Positions 1-13,357 of a DNA stretch of 64,000 nt are shown here, piece by piece. The position numbers and the translations under genes are program-made. The DNA is from a virus, in the IMG/VR virus record IMGVR_UViG_3300023174_000033, positions 400,606 to 464,605 of that record; one strand, written 5' to 3'. The number at the start of each line of letters is the position of its first letter. Position 1 is the stretch's first letter. The notes beneath the pieces were generated by a model. It did not search any database. It worked only from the letters and a program-made list of their open reading frames with translations, and was not told where the DNA came from.

Positions 1-2223
1 ATAAGTACCATCAGTAGAAAGTACCAATTTGAAACTTGTGAAGTCAGAAGATGCGTAAGAACCAGCAGTTTTTACAGTTATACCAGTTAAAAGAGCATTA
101 CCATCAGCAACATCTAATTGAACACTATAAATAGGTTGTGATGTTCCTTGAGCAGCACTTGAAACAGGTGTTGTGAAAGTGTGAGTGATTGTAGGTGTTG
201 GTACATTTACAGGAGCAAATGATACACCTTTAAAAAGAACCTGTGTTGAAGCAGGTGATGTAATGATTGGAGAACCAGAAGCTGTAATGATATCAGAACC
301 TGAACTTGTAATATTAGCAGTTACTGCTGAATTATCAGTAAACTTATAGATTTCATTAGCAGGTGATGTGGTTGATCCAAGACAGATATAGAGAACTCTA
401 TTTCCACCTACAACTTGAACACCAATACCGTGCACAGTTCTACCAGTTGGATTTGGAAGATTTCCTCTTTTTGTCCAAACACCACCAGTATTTGAGAACT
501 TAACAACACCTTGAGTTGCTGTTGCATTAGCATCAGCTACATACATAACATCAGGTGTTCCATTATCATCAACATCAGCGAAAACAAAACCTCTTGGGTC
601 AAGTAGTTCTGTATTTGATGTAGTTCCACTCAAAATTGTGTGTGTATTTCCTGTGGTTGTTGGAAGACCAGCACCAACTGTTGAAATACCAATGTTCACA
701 GATTGAGCACTTGAATAAAGTTGTGAGTTGTAAATAGCAGTTCCCCTAGTATTCACAGTAGTTGTTGAAACTTGGGTAGAAGTAGAAGCACCAAGTGCAA
801 CATATCTTGTACCACCACCAGTTCCAGCACCTCCTGTCCAGAATGCACTACCATCAACAGTAGCAGCTGAACGAATTGAGTTACCATCATAACCATCACT
901 AATACGAGTTGAAGTATTGATTGTACCATTTTGAGTAACCCTAGCAACAATCCTATTTGTTCCAGTAGCAGTACTTGAACTAATACCAATAACACCTGGG
1001 ATGTTATCATACCCACCAAAAGTAAGATATTGACCATCAGGTGAAAGGTTAAGGAAACCTTCGGTTGTAGAAGTACCACTCATAGTGAACTTCCTATTTG
1101 AACCACTTGTTACAAATGGCATTGGTACACTTTGTACTAAAGTACCTGTGGTGGTGTATTCATCAATGAACACAGGTGCTGAATTTGTTGATAAAGTTGT
1201 ACCACCAACTTCACCAACACGAAGAGTTAGGATATTACCAGCAGTGAAAGCAGAACCACCAGAATAAATCTGACCAGTTACAGCCCTTGAAATAGTTGGT
1301 GCTGGTGAAGATACAAAATCAACATTTCCAGTATATGTACCAACGGATGCTGATGTAGTAAGTTTAGCAAAAACTGTGGTTGCTGATACATTACCACCAG
1401 ATTGGTTTAGTGTTAAACTAGATGAAAAAGGACCAGTTGATGAAGTTGAGAATTCATATCCAGAAAGTGTACCCACGGTGATGTTGTTGGTTAGGTTATT
1501 ACCACTTACTGATACCGATTGAACTTCTGAACCAAGACCAGAATTTCCATAAAACTTAGCAAATGTTCCAGTAACAGTGACTGTAGGCACAGGTAAAAAA
1601 CCAGTTAGAGTAATATCATCAAGTCTAGTTGATGCAGTACCAGCTTTTAACCACCTAAGTTTTAGTCCATTGATTTGACCAGCAACTGGGATGGAGATTG
1701 CAGGTGATTGATACCAAGCAACAGCCGCAGTAGCTGTTTGAGAAAAGGTAAATGGAATATTTACCCAAGCAGTACCATTCCAATAATCTACTGTTAGTGT
1801 AGGTAATACTGTTGCACTTTCTTTTCTATATCCAAATTGGAGTGATAGAGAAGTGTAGGCAGATGCGTTTATACCCTCAATTGCAAAACCATACTGACCA
1901 CTAGTGGAAGTTAAGAATACATTACCACCAGCCGAAGCACCAGTGTAACCGGTTGAAGTACTGGTGTTTCTGATATCACCAGGAGTTGTTGCTCCACCAC
2001 TTGTCATAGTAAGAGCAGTGTTTGTGAAACCGTTAGCTGTTTCATGAGCAGCAATTGTAGTAGTTGCAGAAGGTGTACCCATGGTTTCTTGAGTAATAAC
2101 GGGGGATTGCCCAAACACAGTAGGGGCACAAAAAAGTCCTGAGATCAGGACAGCGCAGAAAAGGGACAATACGTTACTAAATCCTGTTCGGAAATTAGTA
2201 CAAAAATTGTAAAGGTGTGACAT
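1..2223 (-). CDS. Large secreted surface protein, 3' end outside window
   Basis: An open frame of 741 codons runs leftward from the ATG at 2223 to the window edge without a stop. Residues 1-40 form an export signal ending in A-P-T-V-F-G-Q. The next ~190 residues are a beta-rich domain rich in G, S and T. Later segments resemble a propeller or repeat region (for example R-T-V-H-G-I-G-V and V-A-D-V-D-D-N-G-T-P-D). Composition is typical of Bacteroidota cell-surface proteins exported by the type IX system, whose sorting domain would lie beyond the edge. No enzyme motif is visible. Its size and signal peptide are unusual for a phage gene; it may be a host-derived adhesin or a virion surface protein. 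Confidence 0.75.
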   Translation of the reverse strand, partial: MSHLYNFCTNFRTGFSNVLSLFCAVLISGLFCAPTVFGQSPVITQETMGTPSATTTIAAHETANGFTNTALTMTSGGATTPGDIRNTSTSTGYTGASAGGNVFLTSTSGQYGFAIEGINASAYTSLSLQFGYRKESATVLPTLTVDYWNGTAWVNIPFTFSQTATAAVAWYQSPAISIPVAGQINGLKLRWLKAGTASTRLDDITLTGFLPVPTVTVTGTFAKFYGNSGLGSEVQSVSVSGNNLTNNITVGTLSGYEFSTSSTGPFSSSLTLNQSGGNVSATTVFAKLTTSASVGTYTGNVDFVSSPAPTISRAVTGQIYSGGSAFTAGNILTLRVGEVGGTTLSTNSAPVFIDEYTTTGTLVQSVPMPFVTSGSNRKFTMSGTSTTEGFLNLSPDGQYLTFGGYDNIPGVIGISSSTATGTNRIVARVTQNGTINTSTRISDGYDGNSIRSAATVDGSAFWTGGAGTGGGTRYVALGASTSTQVSTTTVNTRGTAIYNSQLYSSAQSVNIGISTVGAGLPTTTGNTHTILSGTTSNTELLDPRGFVFADVDDNGTPDVMYVADANATATQGVVKFSNTGGVWTKRGNLPNPTGRTVHGIGVQVVGGNRVLYICLGSTTSPANEIYKFTDNSAVTANITSSGSDIITASGSPIITSPASTQVLFKGVSFAPVNVPTPTITHTFTTPVSSAAQGTSQPIYSVQLDVADGNALLTGITVKTAGSYASSDFTSFKLVLSTDGTY

Positions 2224-2273
2224 AAAGTTTTTTTTGTTTTTGTAAAGTTATTTTTTTTTAAGTTTTGTGATTA

Positions 2274-2310
2274 ATTCGGCAGAACCAAAACTACTAACAT
2301 TTTGCCGAAT
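2274..2310. repeat. Inverted repeat upstream of the secreted-protein gene
   Basis: ATTCGGCA at 2274-2281 is the reverse complement of TGCCGAAT at 2303-2310, with a 21-base loop. It lies 50-90 bases upstream of the start at 2223. It could be an operator or an mRNA hairpin in the 5' leader. The rest of 2224-2435 is AT-rich and holds no gene that I can support. Confidence 0.35.
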
Positions 2311-2435
2311 GAATCTTTACTTTTAACACAAATTAGCACCACCAAAATTTGCGACATGGCTTAGACTCAAAACCAAAATATATATCGCCCAAAAAAGGTT
2401 TAGTTTAGAAAACCTGGATTTATTATCCATACGAA

Positions 2436-2702
2436 TTAAAGGCCTAATAATTTAGACTTTAGAACAGCTTGAAAAACATTTTTCACTTCGTACTTTTCTA
2501 CCGAATCCTTCCGATATTCTTTTTCAGAATTATTGAACTCATTAATCTCACCTATGTAAGCAACTACCATTTCTGAATTGTTATTTTCTACTTGGTTGTG
2601 ATAAGTGTTGTAACTCGACCAAGTTTTAATTCTTGAAATAGTATAACCCTCCTTAATAAGGAAATTTATCATTTCATCGTCTGTAAAATATAAATTAATC
2701 AT
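2436..2702 (-). CDS. Small hypothetical protein
   Basis: I do not recognise a family. The 88-residue product from the ATG at 2702 (M-I-N-L-Y-F-T-D-D-E) is charged and soluble. The frame stays open upstream and could start at 2708, 2714 or 2792. The longest version would add a hydrophobic stretch, but the T-D-D-E-M-I-N-F-L region reads like a natural cytosolic N-terminus, so I chose 2702. No promoter of either class used in this window is obvious. Confidence 0.5.
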   Translation of the reverse strand: MINLYFTDDEMINFLIKEGYTISRIKTWSSYNTYHNQVENNNSEMVVAYIGEINEFNNSEKEYRKDSVEKYEVKNVFQAVLKSKLLGL

Positions 2703-2895
2703 ACTCATAATCATAGAAATAAAGATAATATAATGCCCAAAGAAGTTAAAAATACAATAGATATGGCCATTATTCCAATTAGCAATGAACATCCTGTAAC
2801 CGAAATCATTAATAAGTCACCAAGTAAATTTTTCCTCCCATCATTCATAATGCAAATATAGTTAAAGTTTTTACTCTAAAAAATAAAATAAAATA

Positions 2896-2927
2896 AAAAA
2901 ACCCAACCGAGCTAAAGTTGGGTTTTT
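2896..2927 (-). terminator. Rho-independent terminator of the non-coding RNA
   Basis: CCCAAC (2902-2907) pairs with GTTGGG (2917-2922). A-runs and T-runs flank the stem, so it can act in both directions. On the minus strand it closes the RNA that starts near 3235. On the plus strand no gene reads into it. Confidence 0.8.
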
Positions 2928-3236
2928 AATTAAAAGTTGAGAGAGATTTAATTAAGATTGCGGTCTCAACACCATCAATCTCTAACTCCGACTTTCCCAA
3001 ATCCGCAAATTTGGTTTGTCTACACCTGGATTTGTGTGTGATGCTTTAGGTGTTTCAGCATCAGACCCTACGGGTGATAGGTTTGGTGACCCACAACATC
3101 TACTAAATGTTGCTCCTTGTTTCATCCATATTAGTAGTTATGGACTTATCTGGACTTGTGTGATCTATATTTGGTTCCTAACATAAATCAAGTTAGATCC
3201 TTTCGGTTAGTCGGCTCTCGCAGCTCCCGTTGGACA
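2896..3236 (-). ncRNA. Structured non-coding RNA of about 340 nt, unknown class
   Basis: There is no credible reading frame, base composition is richer in G+C than the surroundings, and the element is bounded by its own promoter (3240-3270) and a terminator (2896-2927). Reading leftward I see: a C-C-GAAA-G-G hairpin (GNRA loop) near the 5' end; a stem CTAAC/GTTAG just after it; CAACAT/ATGTTG; GATGCT/AGCATC; and CCAAAT-TTGCGG-ATTTGG close to the terminator. I see no tmRNA tRNA-like ends and no RNase P core. The ordered hairpins suggest a folded RNA that acts as RNA. Its class and function are unknown. Confidence 0.7.
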
Positions 3237-3239
3237 ATA

Positions 3240-3270
3240 CAAAGGTAAGGCGATTTTTTAGGATTCCAAA
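3240..3270 (-). promoter_or_regulatory. Bacteroidota-type promoter of the non-coding RNA
   Basis: Read leftward, TTTG (3270-3267) is followed after 19 bases by TACCTTTG (3247-3240). This is the Bacteroidota primary-sigma consensus. It lies within the 3' end of the neighbouring coding gene and points into the structured RNA. Confidence 0.75.
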
Positions 3271-3575
3271 ATATTTTTCAATTTTTTTTCTCTTAAATAA
3301 TAAATTAATTTTTCCTCAGCCCATAAGAATATCTTAAGTCTTGGAATTAAGTATTCATCACTCCATCTTGTATGTTTTATATAACCTCTCAACTCCTCAA
3401 TAGTTCTTTGAACCGAATCTAAATCATGGAAAAAATTTCCAGAAGAACCATAATACAAAAAAACTACCTTAGTATCATTTTCTAGTATCTTATGTCCATA
3501 AACCTCTGGTTCATATTCATCTATTATGAAATAATCATTCTTACAAAGGTCAGTAAATATTTTAAGCTGAGACAT
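3258..3575 (-). CDS. Hypothetical protein with C-terminal R-x-K-K-L-x-x-I-L tail
   Basis: A 105-residue soluble protein of unrecognised family that ends Y-L-R-E-K-K-L-K-N-I-L-E-S. This is one of the isolated members of the C-terminal tail set described in the findings; it is not in an ATGA-coupled operon. It is divergent from the gene at 3592, and the 16 bases between them contain an ATATATA run that could serve either direction. Confidence 0.75.
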   Translation of the reverse strand: MSQLKIFTDLCKNDYFIIDEYEPEVYGHKILENDTKVVFLYYGSSGNFFHDLDSVQRTIEELRGYIKHTRWSDEYLIPRLKIFLWAEEKLIYYLREKKLKNILES

Positions 3576-3591
3576 AGTAATATATACTTAT

Positions 3592-4116
3592 GTGAAATTC
3601 ATTAAAAGTTATAAAATTTTTGAGGCAGATGGTACTTTTATGTATGACCCATCAATTGAAAGTATATTACCAGAATATATTAAGATAATTAAGGGGAATC
3701 CAAAAAACCCACTTAGATTAGCTTATAAAAAAGGTATATCAAGACACCTAGGACCAGAAGTTCAAATACCATATGAAACGATGGATAAGAATGGTGGTAG
3801 GGAAAATCCAGACACTTTAGAATTTGACATATATTGGAACTACGATACAAATACTAGTAGTTTAAATATAAATGTCGAAGTAAATTATGGTGATTTAACT
3901 GCTTGTCAATTCTCCATAGAAGCTCCTAATAAAGTTGATGTGATAGTATATACCTCATTACACTCAAAAGATGACCCATCAAATACCGTGTTTGCAATAG
4001 ACGATGAAAGTTTGCAATCATTCTGTAATTACATCAACAAATGGGATCATGGTATCCATATAAATCGCGAAGATTTGAAGTTTATGGACAAGTACGATAA
4101 TTACTTACCTACTTGA
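3592..4116 (+). CDS. Hypothetical protein with MKYLKxFE-type leader, GTG start
   Basis: The product starts M-K-F-I-K-S-Y-K-I-F-E-A, a variant of the leader shared by about 15 proteins here; I-F-E-A fits the [IL]-x-E cleavage pattern of T4-type prohead protease. The start must be GTG at 3592 because the nearby ATG at 3590 is followed at once by a stop. AATATATAC lies just upstream (late-type motif). The body (174 residues) has no known motif. Its 3' end overlaps the convergent gene by 16 bases. Confidence 0.75.
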   Translation: MKFIKSYKIFEADGTFMYDPSIESILPEYIKIIKGNPKNPLRLAYKKGISRHLGPEVQIPYETMDKNGGRENPDTLEFDIYWNYDTNTSSLNINVEVNYGDLTACQFSIEAPNKVDVIVYTSLHSKDDPSNTVFAIDDESLQSFCNYINKWDHGIHINREDLKFMDKYDNYLPT

Positions 4117-5351
4117 TTTCTATCCCAAGTTTCAATTCCAAGAATGTGATACACTTTATCACTTGGATCCTCTACTAAATCCTTCCTAATGGCCAATTCC
4201 ATAAGTAACAATTCCATTTCGTCGTTCAAATCATGGGATTCCAAATCATAGTTCTCAAGTATCTTTATACCTATAAGTGGGTCTTTTTGAAACTTTGATA
4301 TAATCATATCAAATATTTCAATTTGTTTTGACAGAGACTTACCCCGCAAGTTCCTTGAGGAATTAGGTGCATGGTTTACCAACTTTGACAGTTTCTCTAT
4401 ATTAACGTTTTTTGGGTTTACGTCAAAATATCCATTGAAAGTTAAAGAAGAATCAATTATAGGGTGTAATTTGTACCAAGCTTTTTCATAGTCTTTCTTA
4501 TGAAGAATATTTCTCATATAATAAAGATAATCCTTTGAAAGATGAAGTCCACTTATATCATCTTTCTTGTATTTATCACTATCCACTTTTGATTCTAAAG
4601 ACCAGATATGATCACTTGACCCATAATTTGAGAGTAAGTAAACTTCCAAATCTTTTTCTCTAACCAATTTGAACCTTGATTTTAGGTCAGATTGATATTT
4701 TTTGAACATTTTAGCATATCTGTCTTTGAATCTATACTTATGACTATCGATAAAACACCTACTTCCAATAATAGTAGCAATCAAATCCAATTCTATCTCT
4801 GGTAAAGTAGCTTCCAAATCATACTTTTTCTTTACTAATCTGATAGCAGAGTGTGGTGGTGAACTTAAATTACAAAGACGCAACTCACCAGTTTTCAAAA
4901 ATTCCTCAAAATCTTTTGTCCAAATAAATTGATCAGTTTCAATATCGTATCCAAGTTGACAAGAGTTTATATCAAATGAATCTAGTACTAGAGATTTATC
5001 ATCCGTGGTGGAAAAATATTCAATATTGTTATAAATACCATCTACAGACACTTTCTCAATAGTGTAGTAACCCTTTTGTTGATATCCTATATTAAGACCG
5101 GTGTAATCTTCATAAACCCATTTTTCATTTCTAATAAAATGTTGCTTTGATTTTAACTCTCTATTTGTAAAATCCTTTTTGACACCAATCAGATGATAGA
5201 TATCTAAATCATTCACTGGTGCATTCTTACCAGATATTATATTCCATACCACATTTCCGATTGATCCTCCTGCTAGAAAACCAGATTTTGGAAGTTCCCA
5301 TTTTGATTTGATTTGGTCAAGTGCTTGACGAAAGATTTCTTGATATTTCAT
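4101..5351 (-). CDS. Nucleotidyltransferase-fold protein
   Basis: A 416-residue protein. Near residues 24-52 it shows L-A-G-G-S-I-G-N followed by N-D-L-D-I-Y, the G-[GS] helix turn and D-x-D metal pair of the DNA polymerase beta-like nucleotidyltransferase superfamily. I cannot tell the substrate; tRNA, protein AMPylation and antitoxin-like roles are all possible. It starts M-K-Y-Q-E-I-F, only weakly like the leader of other genes. A host-type promoter lies 16 bases upstream. The 3' end overlaps the convergent neighbour. Confidence 0.7.
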   Translation of the reverse strand: MKYQEIFRQALDQIKSKWELPKSGFLAGGSIGNVVWNIISGKNAPVNDLDIYHLIGVKKDFTNRELKSKQHFIRNEKWVYEDYTGLNIGYQQKGYYTIEKVSVDGIYNNIEYFSTTDDKSLVLDSFDINSCQLGYDIETDQFIWTKDFEEFLKTGELRLCNLSSPPHSAIRLVKKKYDLEATLPEIELDLIATIIGSRCFIDSHKYRFKDRYAKMFKKYQSDLKSRFKLVREKDLEVYLLSNYGSSDHIWSLESKVDSDKYKKDDISGLHLSKDYLYYMRNILHKKDYEKAWYKLHPIIDSSLTFNGYFDVNPKNVNIEKLSKLVNHAPNSSRNLRGKSLSKQIEIFDMIISKFQKDPLIGIKILENYDLESHDLNDEMELLLMELAIRKDLVEDPSDKVYHILGIETWDRNQVGK

Positions 5352-11109: not shown

Positions 11110-11550
11110 CTAAAAATTTTCCTTTAAACACTCCTCAACACCTTCGATAGTATCACAAACCCACATTCTTGAATTTACATTTCTTGAACCAGGTGTCTCT
11201 GGTATAAAACATTCAATCAACCATATATCATCTTCCAGTTTTTGAATAACCAGATCGCATTTAAAAGGTATATCTAAATCAAAAACATATTCCCTTCTGT
11301 AATCAGTTAAACCTTCTCTATGAGTCATTTCATACTTTTGTTTATCTACATGAGCTAATGGAAATCCTTTGGATCTAATATACTCCTCTACAAATCTATC
11401 TAAATTTTTATCTTCTTTTGGTGTTATATCATCTTGGTGACCCCAATATTCTAATTGTTCATAACTATGGGCAGTTAATCTATTATAGATCTTTCCTTCT
11501 AATTTATCATATGCTGATAGATTTTCATTAAATCTTTTTAAGTATTTCAT
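11110..11550 (-). CDS. Leader family paralogue 1
   Basis: Starts M-K-Y-L-K-R-F-N-E-N at 11550, where ATGA overlaps the upstream gene's stop; the longer GTG version is less likely. The middle has D-D-I-W-L-I-E and the end W-V-C-D-T-I-E-G-V-E-E-C-L, divergent forms of the D-E-W-F-x-V and E-C-D-G-F-D-x-L-L blocks of its neighbours. Last gene of the five-gene tandem. Confidence 0.8.
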   Translation of the reverse strand: MKYLKRFNENLSAYDKLEGKIYNRLTAHSYEQLEYWGHQDDITPKEDKNLDRFVEEYIRSKGFPLAHVDKQKYEMTHREGLTDYRREYVFDLDIPFKCDLVIQKLEDDIWLIECFIPETPGSRNVNSRMWVCDTIEGVEECLKENF

Positions 11551-11984
11551 AACCACTTATCAAGTAATATTTTAAGTGAATCAAATTCATCACATTCATA
11601 GTATTCAGAAAATCCATCAATTGTAGTTTCTTCATCAAAAATATCATCACCTTGAAATATACGAACATAATACCAATCATCCTTATTTTTGTAACAATCA
11701 AAACAAATTAAATTAGCATTTCCACCATTTGAATACATATAAATAACAAAATTATCTGGAAGTTCTTTTTTATCCGAAGTGAATCTGTTGTAGATAAAAC
11801 TAGAACGATTATTATATTCCACATCTTCTATTTTTCTACTCTTATCAAATACAGATTCTAAATATAAAAGTTCTTTTTCAGTAAAATAATCTCTTGTCTT
11901 TTTTTCTGGATAAAAATCTTCATAGGAAATATTTTTAGGTTCAGCAGGTCCAAACATATTTTCAAATAACTTTAGATATTTCAT
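11547..11984 (-). CDS. Leader family paralogue 2
   Basis: Starts M-K-Y-L-K-L-F-E-N-M-F-G; L-F-E fits an [LI]-x-E processing site. It has K-D-D-W-Y-Y-V-R and E-Y-Y-E-C-D-E-F-D-S-L-K-I-L-L near the end. Four-base overlaps on both sides indicate translational coupling. 145 residues. Confidence 0.8.
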   Translation of the reverse strand: MKYLKLFENMFGPAEPKNISYEDFYPEKKTRDYFTEKELLYLESVFDKSRKIEDVEYNNRSSFIYNRFTSDKKELPDNFVIYMYSNGGNANLICFDCYKNKDDWYYVRIFQGDDIFDEETTIDGFSEYYECDEFDSLKILLDKWL

Positions 11985-12430
11985 TTAAGTTTAGCTTCTT
12001 TTTTTAAAAGATTTAATAAACAATCAAACCCATCACATTCATAATATTCTTCATAACCTTCAAAATATCCTTCATCACTATCCCAATTATCTTGATAAAA
12101 ACTTACTAAAAACCATTCATCTTTACATTTTTGGACATGAACTTCAAATGGATATGGATTGCCTTCATCATAAGTTGGTAGATAAAAAGTTAAATAAGTA
12201 AGACCAATTCTGTAATAATCAACTTTTTCACTTAATCCAAGATTATCCCATTCTTCTTCTTCCATATGGCAACGGTCACTATCTTCCATTAAATTAACAA
12301 GGGTTTCCATTTCAGATTTACTGAAAAACTCCTTACCCAAAGATTTTAAAAGTCTTGACCATTCACTATTGGTGATTTTTTTTGGTTCAGCAGCTCCAAA
12401 TATGCTTTCAAATCTTTTTAAGTATTTCAT
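11981..12430 (-). CDS. Leader family paralogue 3
   Basis: Starts M-K-Y-L-K-R-F-E-S-I-F-G-A-A-E-P-K. It is closest to paralogue 5, sharing K-D-E-W-F-L-V-S-F-Y-Q, the Y-Y-E-C-D-G-F-D block and the spacing of most residues. The F-F-S-K-S-E segment near residue 36 recurs in several copies as F-F-T-K-S-E or F-T-E-K-E. 149 residues. Confidence 0.8.
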   Translation of the reverse strand: MKYLKRFESIFGAAEPKKITNSEWSRLLKSLGKEFFSKSEMETLVNLMEDSDRCHMEEEEWDNLGLSEKVDYYRIGLTYLTFYLPTYDEGNPYPFEVHVQKCKDEWFLVSFYQDNWDSDEGYFEGYEEYYECDGFDCLLNLLKKEAKLK

Positions 12431-12864
12431 AGGTTTAAAAGTTCTTCTAATTTTTCTATTAAGTCTTCAAATGTGCTACATTCGAACTTTCTAACAACCT
12501 CATCACCACCTTTTTCATCAAATTCAGCATAACCCAAATAAAACCAATCAGGATCATCCACCTTATCCCTTTTTGAAATTTCAATTGCTTTTACAATATA
12601 TTTCCCCCTTGGGTAGTTACTGGTTTTCTCTACTTTTCTAAAATCATTAATAGTATAATGGGTCTTATCATAATTTAATTCCAATAACCTATCATATTCT
12701 AAACTCAATTCATACCTTCTTATAAAATCAGACATCTGTTCTATTTCAGAAGTGGTGAATTCTGATAAAGTAACTGACCTTGAATTCACCCTTCTCCACC
12801 AATCATCGAAGTCGAGTTCAGTTGAACCAGAATAAAAGTTTTCAAATCTTTTTAAGTATTTCAT
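12427..12864 (-). CDS. Leader family paralogue 4
   Basis: Starts M-K-Y-L-K-R-F-E-N-F-Y-S. This is the most diverged of the five: P-D-W-F-Y-L-G-Y replaces D-E-W-F-x-V-S, and K-F-E-C-S-T-F-E-D-L replaces the acidic E-C-D block, but block order and spacing are kept. 145 residues, ATGA-coupled to paralogue 3. Confidence 0.8.
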   Translation of the reverse strand: MKYLKRFENFYSGSTELDFDDWWRRVNSRSVTLSEFTTSEIEQMSDFIRRYELSLEYDRLLELNYDKTHYTINDFRKVEKTSNYPRGKYIVKAIEISKRDKVDDPDWFYLGYAEFDEKGGDEVVRKFECSTFEDLIEKLEELLNL

Positions 12865-12867
12865 AGT

Positions 12868-13293
12868 TTATTGTATTTTTAATAAGTTCAAAACAGAATC
12901 AAACCCATCACATTCATAATATTCTTCATACTCATAGTAAACTTCCCCTTCTTCATCTTGATACTCATCTTGATAAAAACTAACCATAAACCATTCATCT
13001 GGACACTTTTGTATATGAACCTCTATTGGTAGAGGATTAACATCACCACCTCCAATATAATAAGTTAGATAAGTAAGACCAATAACAAAATTATCTAACT
13101 TTTCACTCCAACCAAGATTATCCCATACTACTTGTTCTCGACCACTACTTTCCATTAAGTCAATCAAAGTTTTATGCTCTGATTTGGTAAAGAAATCTTT
13201 TCCAGATTTAATTTTAATTGACCATTGACGTTCACTTATCTGTTTAGCTTCAGCAGGTCCAAACATAGATTCAAATAATTTCAGATATTTCAT
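12868..13293 (-). CDS. Leader family paralogue 5, first gene of the tandem
   Basis: I start it at 13293 (M-K-Y-L-K-L-F-E-S-M-F-G-P-A-E-A-K), because the other four also start at that motif. The frame is open 33 bases further up but without the motif. TTAATATATAC, the late-type motif, lies 8 bases before the ATG. It has D-E-W-F-M-V-S-F-Y-Q and E-E-Y-Y-E-C-D-G-F-D-S-V-L. Confidence 0.8.
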   Translation of the reverse strand: MKYLKLFESMFGPAEAKQISERQWSIKIKSGKDFFTKSEHKTLIDLMESSGREQVVWDNLGWSEKLDNFVIGLTYLTYYIGGGDVNPLPIEVHIQKCPDEWFMVSFYQDEYQDEEGEVYYEYEEYYECDGFDSVLNLLKIQ

Positions 13294-13357
13294 TAAGTAT
13301 ATATTAAAATTTTTTATATTTTGCAAAACATTAGAAATAACAAGAATATAAGGTGAT

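Follow-up and report, generated by a model that had tools for sequence, protein, structure and literature searches.

To our knowledge, few phage RNAs of about 345 nt have been described, and hardly any of these has a known function. Several of the systems that come closest to the RNA described here contain pseudoknots. Type III antitoxins consist of H-type pseudoknots located ahead of an intrinsic terminator (PMC5086642), and phage PhiTE encodes pseudo-ToxI, a mimic or decoy of the type III antitoxin ToxI (PMC3475682). ROOL likewise carries multiple pseudoknots (PMC12286853).

The RNA reported here shares features with each of these systems, as well as with tmRNA. Like the type III antitoxins ToxI, CptI and TenpI, it is predicted to have successive H-type pseudoknots between a promoter of its own and an intrinsic terminator. 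Unlike in those systems, there is no tandem short unit, the pseudoknots of 37–47 nt are unrelated in sequence and a recognisable toxin gene is lacking. By definition it is therefore not a type III antitoxin, as the pseudoknots are not repeats and no toxin is recognised. With tmRNA (RF00023) it has in common a length of about 350 nt, several H-type pseudoknots (predicted here) and possibly a long-range closing helix, but it has neither a tRNA-like domain nor a CCA end, and the spacing of the pseudoknots differs. Similar to ROOL and GOLLD, it is a phage-encoded, autonomous and structured RNA with putative pseudoknots. However, those RNAs are larger, i.e., about 660 nt for ROOL env-120 and over 800 nt for many GOLLD RNAs, and this RNA neither matches their models nor lies in a tRNA island.

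The RNA is encoded in an IMG/VR record of 464,605 nt. The window, i.e., the whole 64-kb stretch of DNA that was analysed, is the end of this record (400,606–464,605), and positions given below are those of the window unless stated otherwise. On the basis of a T4-like head gene set in the record, including the major head protein and portal (PHROGs), and of the Bacteroidota-type promoter style in the window, the source virus is read as a probable jumbo myovirus of Bacteroidota, the host assignment being drawn from sequence. The RNA gene lies at 403.5 kb of the contig, in a region that is not common to its relatives, and its transcription unit consists of the following elements.

3240 to 3270, minus strand: Bacteroidota-type promoter, TTTG-N19-TACCTTTG
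2890 to 3235, minus strand: predicted RNA transcript of about 345 nt
2897 to 2927, minus strand: intrinsic terminator with a 12-pair stem, a 7-nt loop and a U-rich tract to about 2890

Bacteroidota promoters are characterized by a TTTG element at −33. At this locus, the −33 TTTG (3270–3267) is separated by a 19-nt spacer from the −7 box TACCTTTG (3247–3240), which is a full match to this promoter type. Within the 64 kb, both strands counted, just 10 sites of the form TTTG-N19/20-TANNTTTG are present. Because the Flavobacterium −7 box TAnnTTTG is located at −12 to −5 (PMC9723704), the predicted +1 is a G at about 3235. A sigma-70 scan yielded fewer sites than expected by chance. The terminator stem holds a perfect 11-bp core and is the single terminator-like site within 2200–4200, where shuffled sequences have 0.9 on average. 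The G+C content of the predicted transcript is 41%, compared to 32% for the window. As read from the sequence, the putative promoter, the G+C-rich segment and the terminator thus follow each other on the same strand with the correct spacing, making a stand-alone RNA gene at this locus fairly secure. The promoter and the terminator also lend indirect support to a transcript having these ends. The original prediction of a minus-strand RNA gene of about 340 nt that has a promoter and a terminator of its own is borne out, the promoter being of the Bacteroidota and not of the sigma-70 type. The range given for the gene (2896–3270) needs adjustment, as it takes in the promoter, while the transcript would run from about 3235 to 2890.

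Folding of the minus strand yields a structure with a z-score of −3.23, as stable as none of 100 shuffled sequences, whereas the z-score of the plus strand is −1.99. When the helices are read with crossing pairs, four H-type pseudoknots in series appear, with perfect or near-perfect stems of 6–8 bp, interspersed with simple hairpins. All elements below are on the minus strand and are listed from the 5′ end of the RNA.

2988 to 3214, minus strand: closing helix of CCGACU (3214–3209) with AGUCGG (2993–2988) around pseudoknots 1–3, found in the MFE and centroid structures
3161 to 3197, minus strand: pseudoknot 1, S1 UCUAAC/GUUAGG, S2 UGAUUUAU/AUAGAUCA, loops 1/0/8
3100 to 3145, minus strand: pseudoknot 2, S1 GUCCAUA/UAUGGAU, S2 CUACUAA/UUAGUAG, loops 1/0/17
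3067 to 3081, minus strand: small hairpin CCUAU(CACCC)GUAGG between pseudoknots 2 and 3, from the MFE structure
3022 to 3063, minus strand: pseudoknot 3, S1 UGAUGCU/AGCAUCA, S2 ACACCU/AGGUGU, loops 3/2/11
2997 to 3014, minus strand: hairpin CCAAAU(UUGCGG)AUUUGG, from inspection of the sequence, its helix also being present in the constrained fold
2936 to 2982, minus strand: pseudoknot 4, S1 GAGAUUG/CAAUCUU, S2 GUUGAGA/UCUCAAC, loops 5/3/11

Pseudoknots 2 and 3 are energetically favoured over the nested fold, while nested alternatives of pseudoknots 1 and 4 are about equal in energy. For the entire RNA, the nested MFE is −84.7, compared to −71 to −81.5 for the model with four pseudoknots, the range being set by the pseudoknot penalty. 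Such calculations with nearest-neighbour energies leave the fold undecided and do not prove the pseudoknots, which are nonetheless probable. The closing helix is a tentative element, as it is absent from the constrained optimum. The loop of the hairpin at 2997–3014 is complementary to the CCGCAA of pseudoknot 4, so that a further tertiary pairing is possible. A GNRA hairpin and at least four further hairpins had originally been described. GNRA-like loops (GCGA and GAAA) are indeed present close to the 5′ end, but on short stems that have no individual support. As for the other hairpins, a series of four H-type pseudoknots together with simple hairpins is the better description. The main feature of this RNA, i.e., its pseudoknots, had escaped the original description and is of a kind that is overlooked by searches restricted to nested hairpins.

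To express how unusual this array is, a pseudoknot chain score based on simple stacking energies was calculated for the RNA and for 5000 dinucleotide shuffles. The RNA scores −46.8, while the shuffles have a mean of −8.7 (sd 6.4) and a best value of −35.4, none of the 5000 reaching the score of the RNA. This result is unchanged when stems of at least 6 are demanded. Four pseudoknots scoring −8 or better each are present in the RNA, compared to 0–3 in each of 3000 shuffles. The same four-pseudoknot test, devised after the pseudoknots had been spotted by eye, was passed by 9 of 52,192 overlapping 312-nt windows drawn from this phage and from relatives (G001, G002, G004, G008, G009, G057, G058, and G060), about 2 Mb in total. 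Beyond this RNA, the passing windows represent four places, all of them long, coding, low-complexity tail-fibre repeats, which are picked up because the score climbs with G+C content and repeats. This RNA is the sole non-coding place that passes. The fetched DNA contains 71 promoter-to-terminator units that have little or no open reading frame; this RNA is also the best scoring one of these, the next best reaching −13.9. The tmRNA of the phage itself scores just −14.8, and the detector is therefore not sensitive to genuine pseudoknot RNAs. In sequence, the four pseudoknots do not repeat one another, and a tandem repeat of one unit was not found. An internal duplication was considered and rejected, since self-similarity is not significant (13% of the shuffles match it). 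One 13-nt repeat, CACACAARUCCAG, occurs in two copies and is found nowhere else in the fetched loci.

The original prediction also stated that the RNA does not match tmRNA or RNase P by eye and is shorter than GOLLD and ROOL RNAs, and had called for a covariance-model search against known families. The RNA is none of these four, and a hit to a known family, named there as a refuting outcome, did not appear. With Rfam 15, no family scored at or above its gathering score, and permissive filters gave terminator-like or chance matches only. A known RNA family was rejected on the basis of Rfam and ARAGORN, neither of which gave a match, nor did they detect a tRNA-like domain or a tmRNA covariance match within the window. 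The RNA is not a tmRNA remnant either, as it lacks the tRNA-like domain and shows no significant similarity to the genuine tmRNA of this phage (L051; RF00023, 58 bits), which is encoded 164 kb away at G000:C1:239084-239437. This tmRNA was overlooked by ARAGORN. Its predicted tag of 30 aa, GNTNEVASKEELVFALQNNILKTNEVASVA, is unusually long, contains TNEVAS in repeated form and lacks the usual LAA end.

Homologues of the RNA were searched by sequence, a procedure that a relative keeping the fold but not the sequence would escape. None was found in 50,697 phage records or 72,556 plasmids, nor in the 395 genomes of the phylum of one Bacteroidota MAG (L241). In all, about 95 related viral records were searched. 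No homologue is present in seven IMG/VR relatives found via the neighbouring nucleotidyltransferase-like gene, in 80 relatives found via the major capsid protein, or in six found via the AAA ATPase. The capsid relatives are mostly short contigs, and the two best ones are uninformative on the region of the RNA (403.5 kb), since they are syntenic only with 244–349 kb of the contig. In two 640-kb phages carrying the nucleotidyltransferase-like gene, a single weak match (E 3.7e-4) was obtained, which covers just the terminator end of the query. The top BLAST fragments from relatives (G004:113922, W01:361051, and others) were rejected as chance because they lie inside coding-looking sequence. Searching viral contigs with DNA patterns of the RNA gave 11 matches for the 5′ part and 0 for both the pseudoknot 2 loop and the pseudoknot 3 hairpin, and in genome contigs there were 0 matches. 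The 11 matches were rejected, being richer in G+C (48–59%) and having weak pseudoknot scores. For a neighbouring 105-aa protein, no relatives were found as well. As judged from these sequence comparisons, the best reading is that the RNA is probably lineage-specific. In the absence of a match to a known family or to the searched collections, the RNA may represent a new kind among viral RNAs. Its newness refers to the collections that were searched, and being absent from these does not equal absence in nature. A new phage RNA class is hence possible but unproven.

Promoter, terminator, composition, fold energy and pseudoknot array together support a stand-alone structured RNA gene outside all Rfam families. 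On balance, we favour a non-coding RNA gene of a T4-like Bacteroidota jumbo phage that would act in trans through its folded shape. A host-type RNA polymerase would transcribe the RNA on its own, after which it would fold into a compact array of pseudoknots and bind a protein or the ribosome by means of its three-dimensional shape, involving neither a peptide nor base-pairing to a target. An antisense sRNA was rejected, as no target in the phage genome stands out above the shuffles. Of the particular mechanisms, that of a decoy or antidote RNA is tentatively put forward as the most likely, by analogy with PhiTE. Through their folded surface, the pseudoknots would engage an RNA-binding protein of the host, for instance a type III ToxIN-like ribonuclease toxin of abortive infection, and keep it occupied during infection, as pseudo-ToxI of PhiTE does. 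Next comes a ribosome-bound role analogous to the tmRNA pseudoknot ring minus the tRNA-like part, which is rather unlikely. The broader proposal of a new class of phage RNAs, in which four different H-type pseudoknots would neutralise host defence ribonucleases or dock on the ribosome by shape mimicry, is speculative and rather unlikely. An orphan RNA with four pseudoknots beside a separate tmRNA would offer a compact system in which to test whether jumbo phages use RNA for counter-defence or to control the ribosome.

Two other explanations involve the genes that follow the terminator.

2711 to 2848, minus strand: 45-aa hydrophobic ORF after the terminator, from the ORF list
2436 to 2714, minus strand: 92-aa ORF with a 4-nt overlap with the 45-aa ORF

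Both ORFs likely form a two-gene operon without recognised homologues, and they are possible downstream partner genes of the RNA. The RNA could accordingly be a cis-regulatory leader of this operon, i.e., a riboswitch or attenuator with the terminator as the regulated switch. As in such leaders, promoter, structured RNA, terminator and ORF follow each other on the same strand, the ORF starting 42 nt further on, and the 4 nt shared by both ORFs are typical for a real operon. Unlike riboswitches and attenuators, however, the RNA matches no aptamer or other known leader family in Rfam and has no clear anti-terminator: the 11-bp terminator core is perfect, and the anti-terminator pairing found by eye is at most 5 bp and unconvincing. 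Moreover, a separate −7-like box, TATATTTG, is found immediately 5′ of the ATG of the downstream ORF. A leader function is unlikely.

Still less likely is a phage-borne type III-like toxin–antitoxin pair, with the RNA as antitoxin and the 45-aa or the 92-aa ORF as toxin. Type I toxins are hydrophobic, and the 45-aa ORF resembles them in this respect. In addition, the order of promoter, pseudoknot RNA, intrinsic terminator and ORF is that of type III systems (PMC5086642). Yet Pfam and PADLOC recognised no toxin or defence gene beside the RNA, including ToxN-, CptN- and TenpN-like proteins, and tandem repetition is lacking among the pseudoknots. The predicted structures of two proteins encoded nearby were of too low quality for a structure search; that of the 88-aa protein, modelled from a single sequence, is unusable (pLDDT 42).

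An ornate RNA that assembles into a multimeric RNA-only cage, as proposed by comparison with ROOL and GOLLD, would fit an autonomous phage RNA with multiple pseudoknots like those of ROOL (PMC12286853), but is very improbable for an RNA of about half their size that matches neither of their Rfam models and has its nearest tRNAs 23 kb off instead of in an adjoining island. Finally, the RNA had been described as having no reading frame, whereas it does contain one.

2982 to 3125, minus strand: 47-codon ATG ORF inside the RNA, probably fortuitous

Since 11% of the shuffles contain an ORF of at least 47 codons and an antisense ORF of 56 codons has as good a codon score (0.098, compared to 0.077), nothing supports coding by this ORF. 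That it specifies a small protein, the folding being incidental, is the least probable of all explanations: its codon score is in the range of the real genes of this phage, but it follows 110 nt of structured leader and has no Pfam match.

The surroundings of the RNA gene show some further particularities. The nucleotidyltransferase-like protein is encoded at 4101–5351 on the minus strand and has relatives in other jumbo phages. In L012, L013, L014, L002, and L003, its gene is located upstream of large tRNA arrays; the window has just two tRNAs, 21 kb away. The sigma-factor-like gene of the phage (58368–59096) has its best genome match, of 53%, in L241 (CAIWBA010000291.1), a 254-kb contig that is binned to a Bacteroidetes MAG and may be a misbinned jumbo phage. 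Paralogous small proteins starting with MKYLK(L/R)FE are encoded in series at 11547–13326 on the minus strand, with more copies elsewhere in the contig. Lastly, two near-identical tail-sheath-like genes, encoding 1404 and 1380 aa, lie adjacent to each other in tandem at G000:C1:269815-278325.
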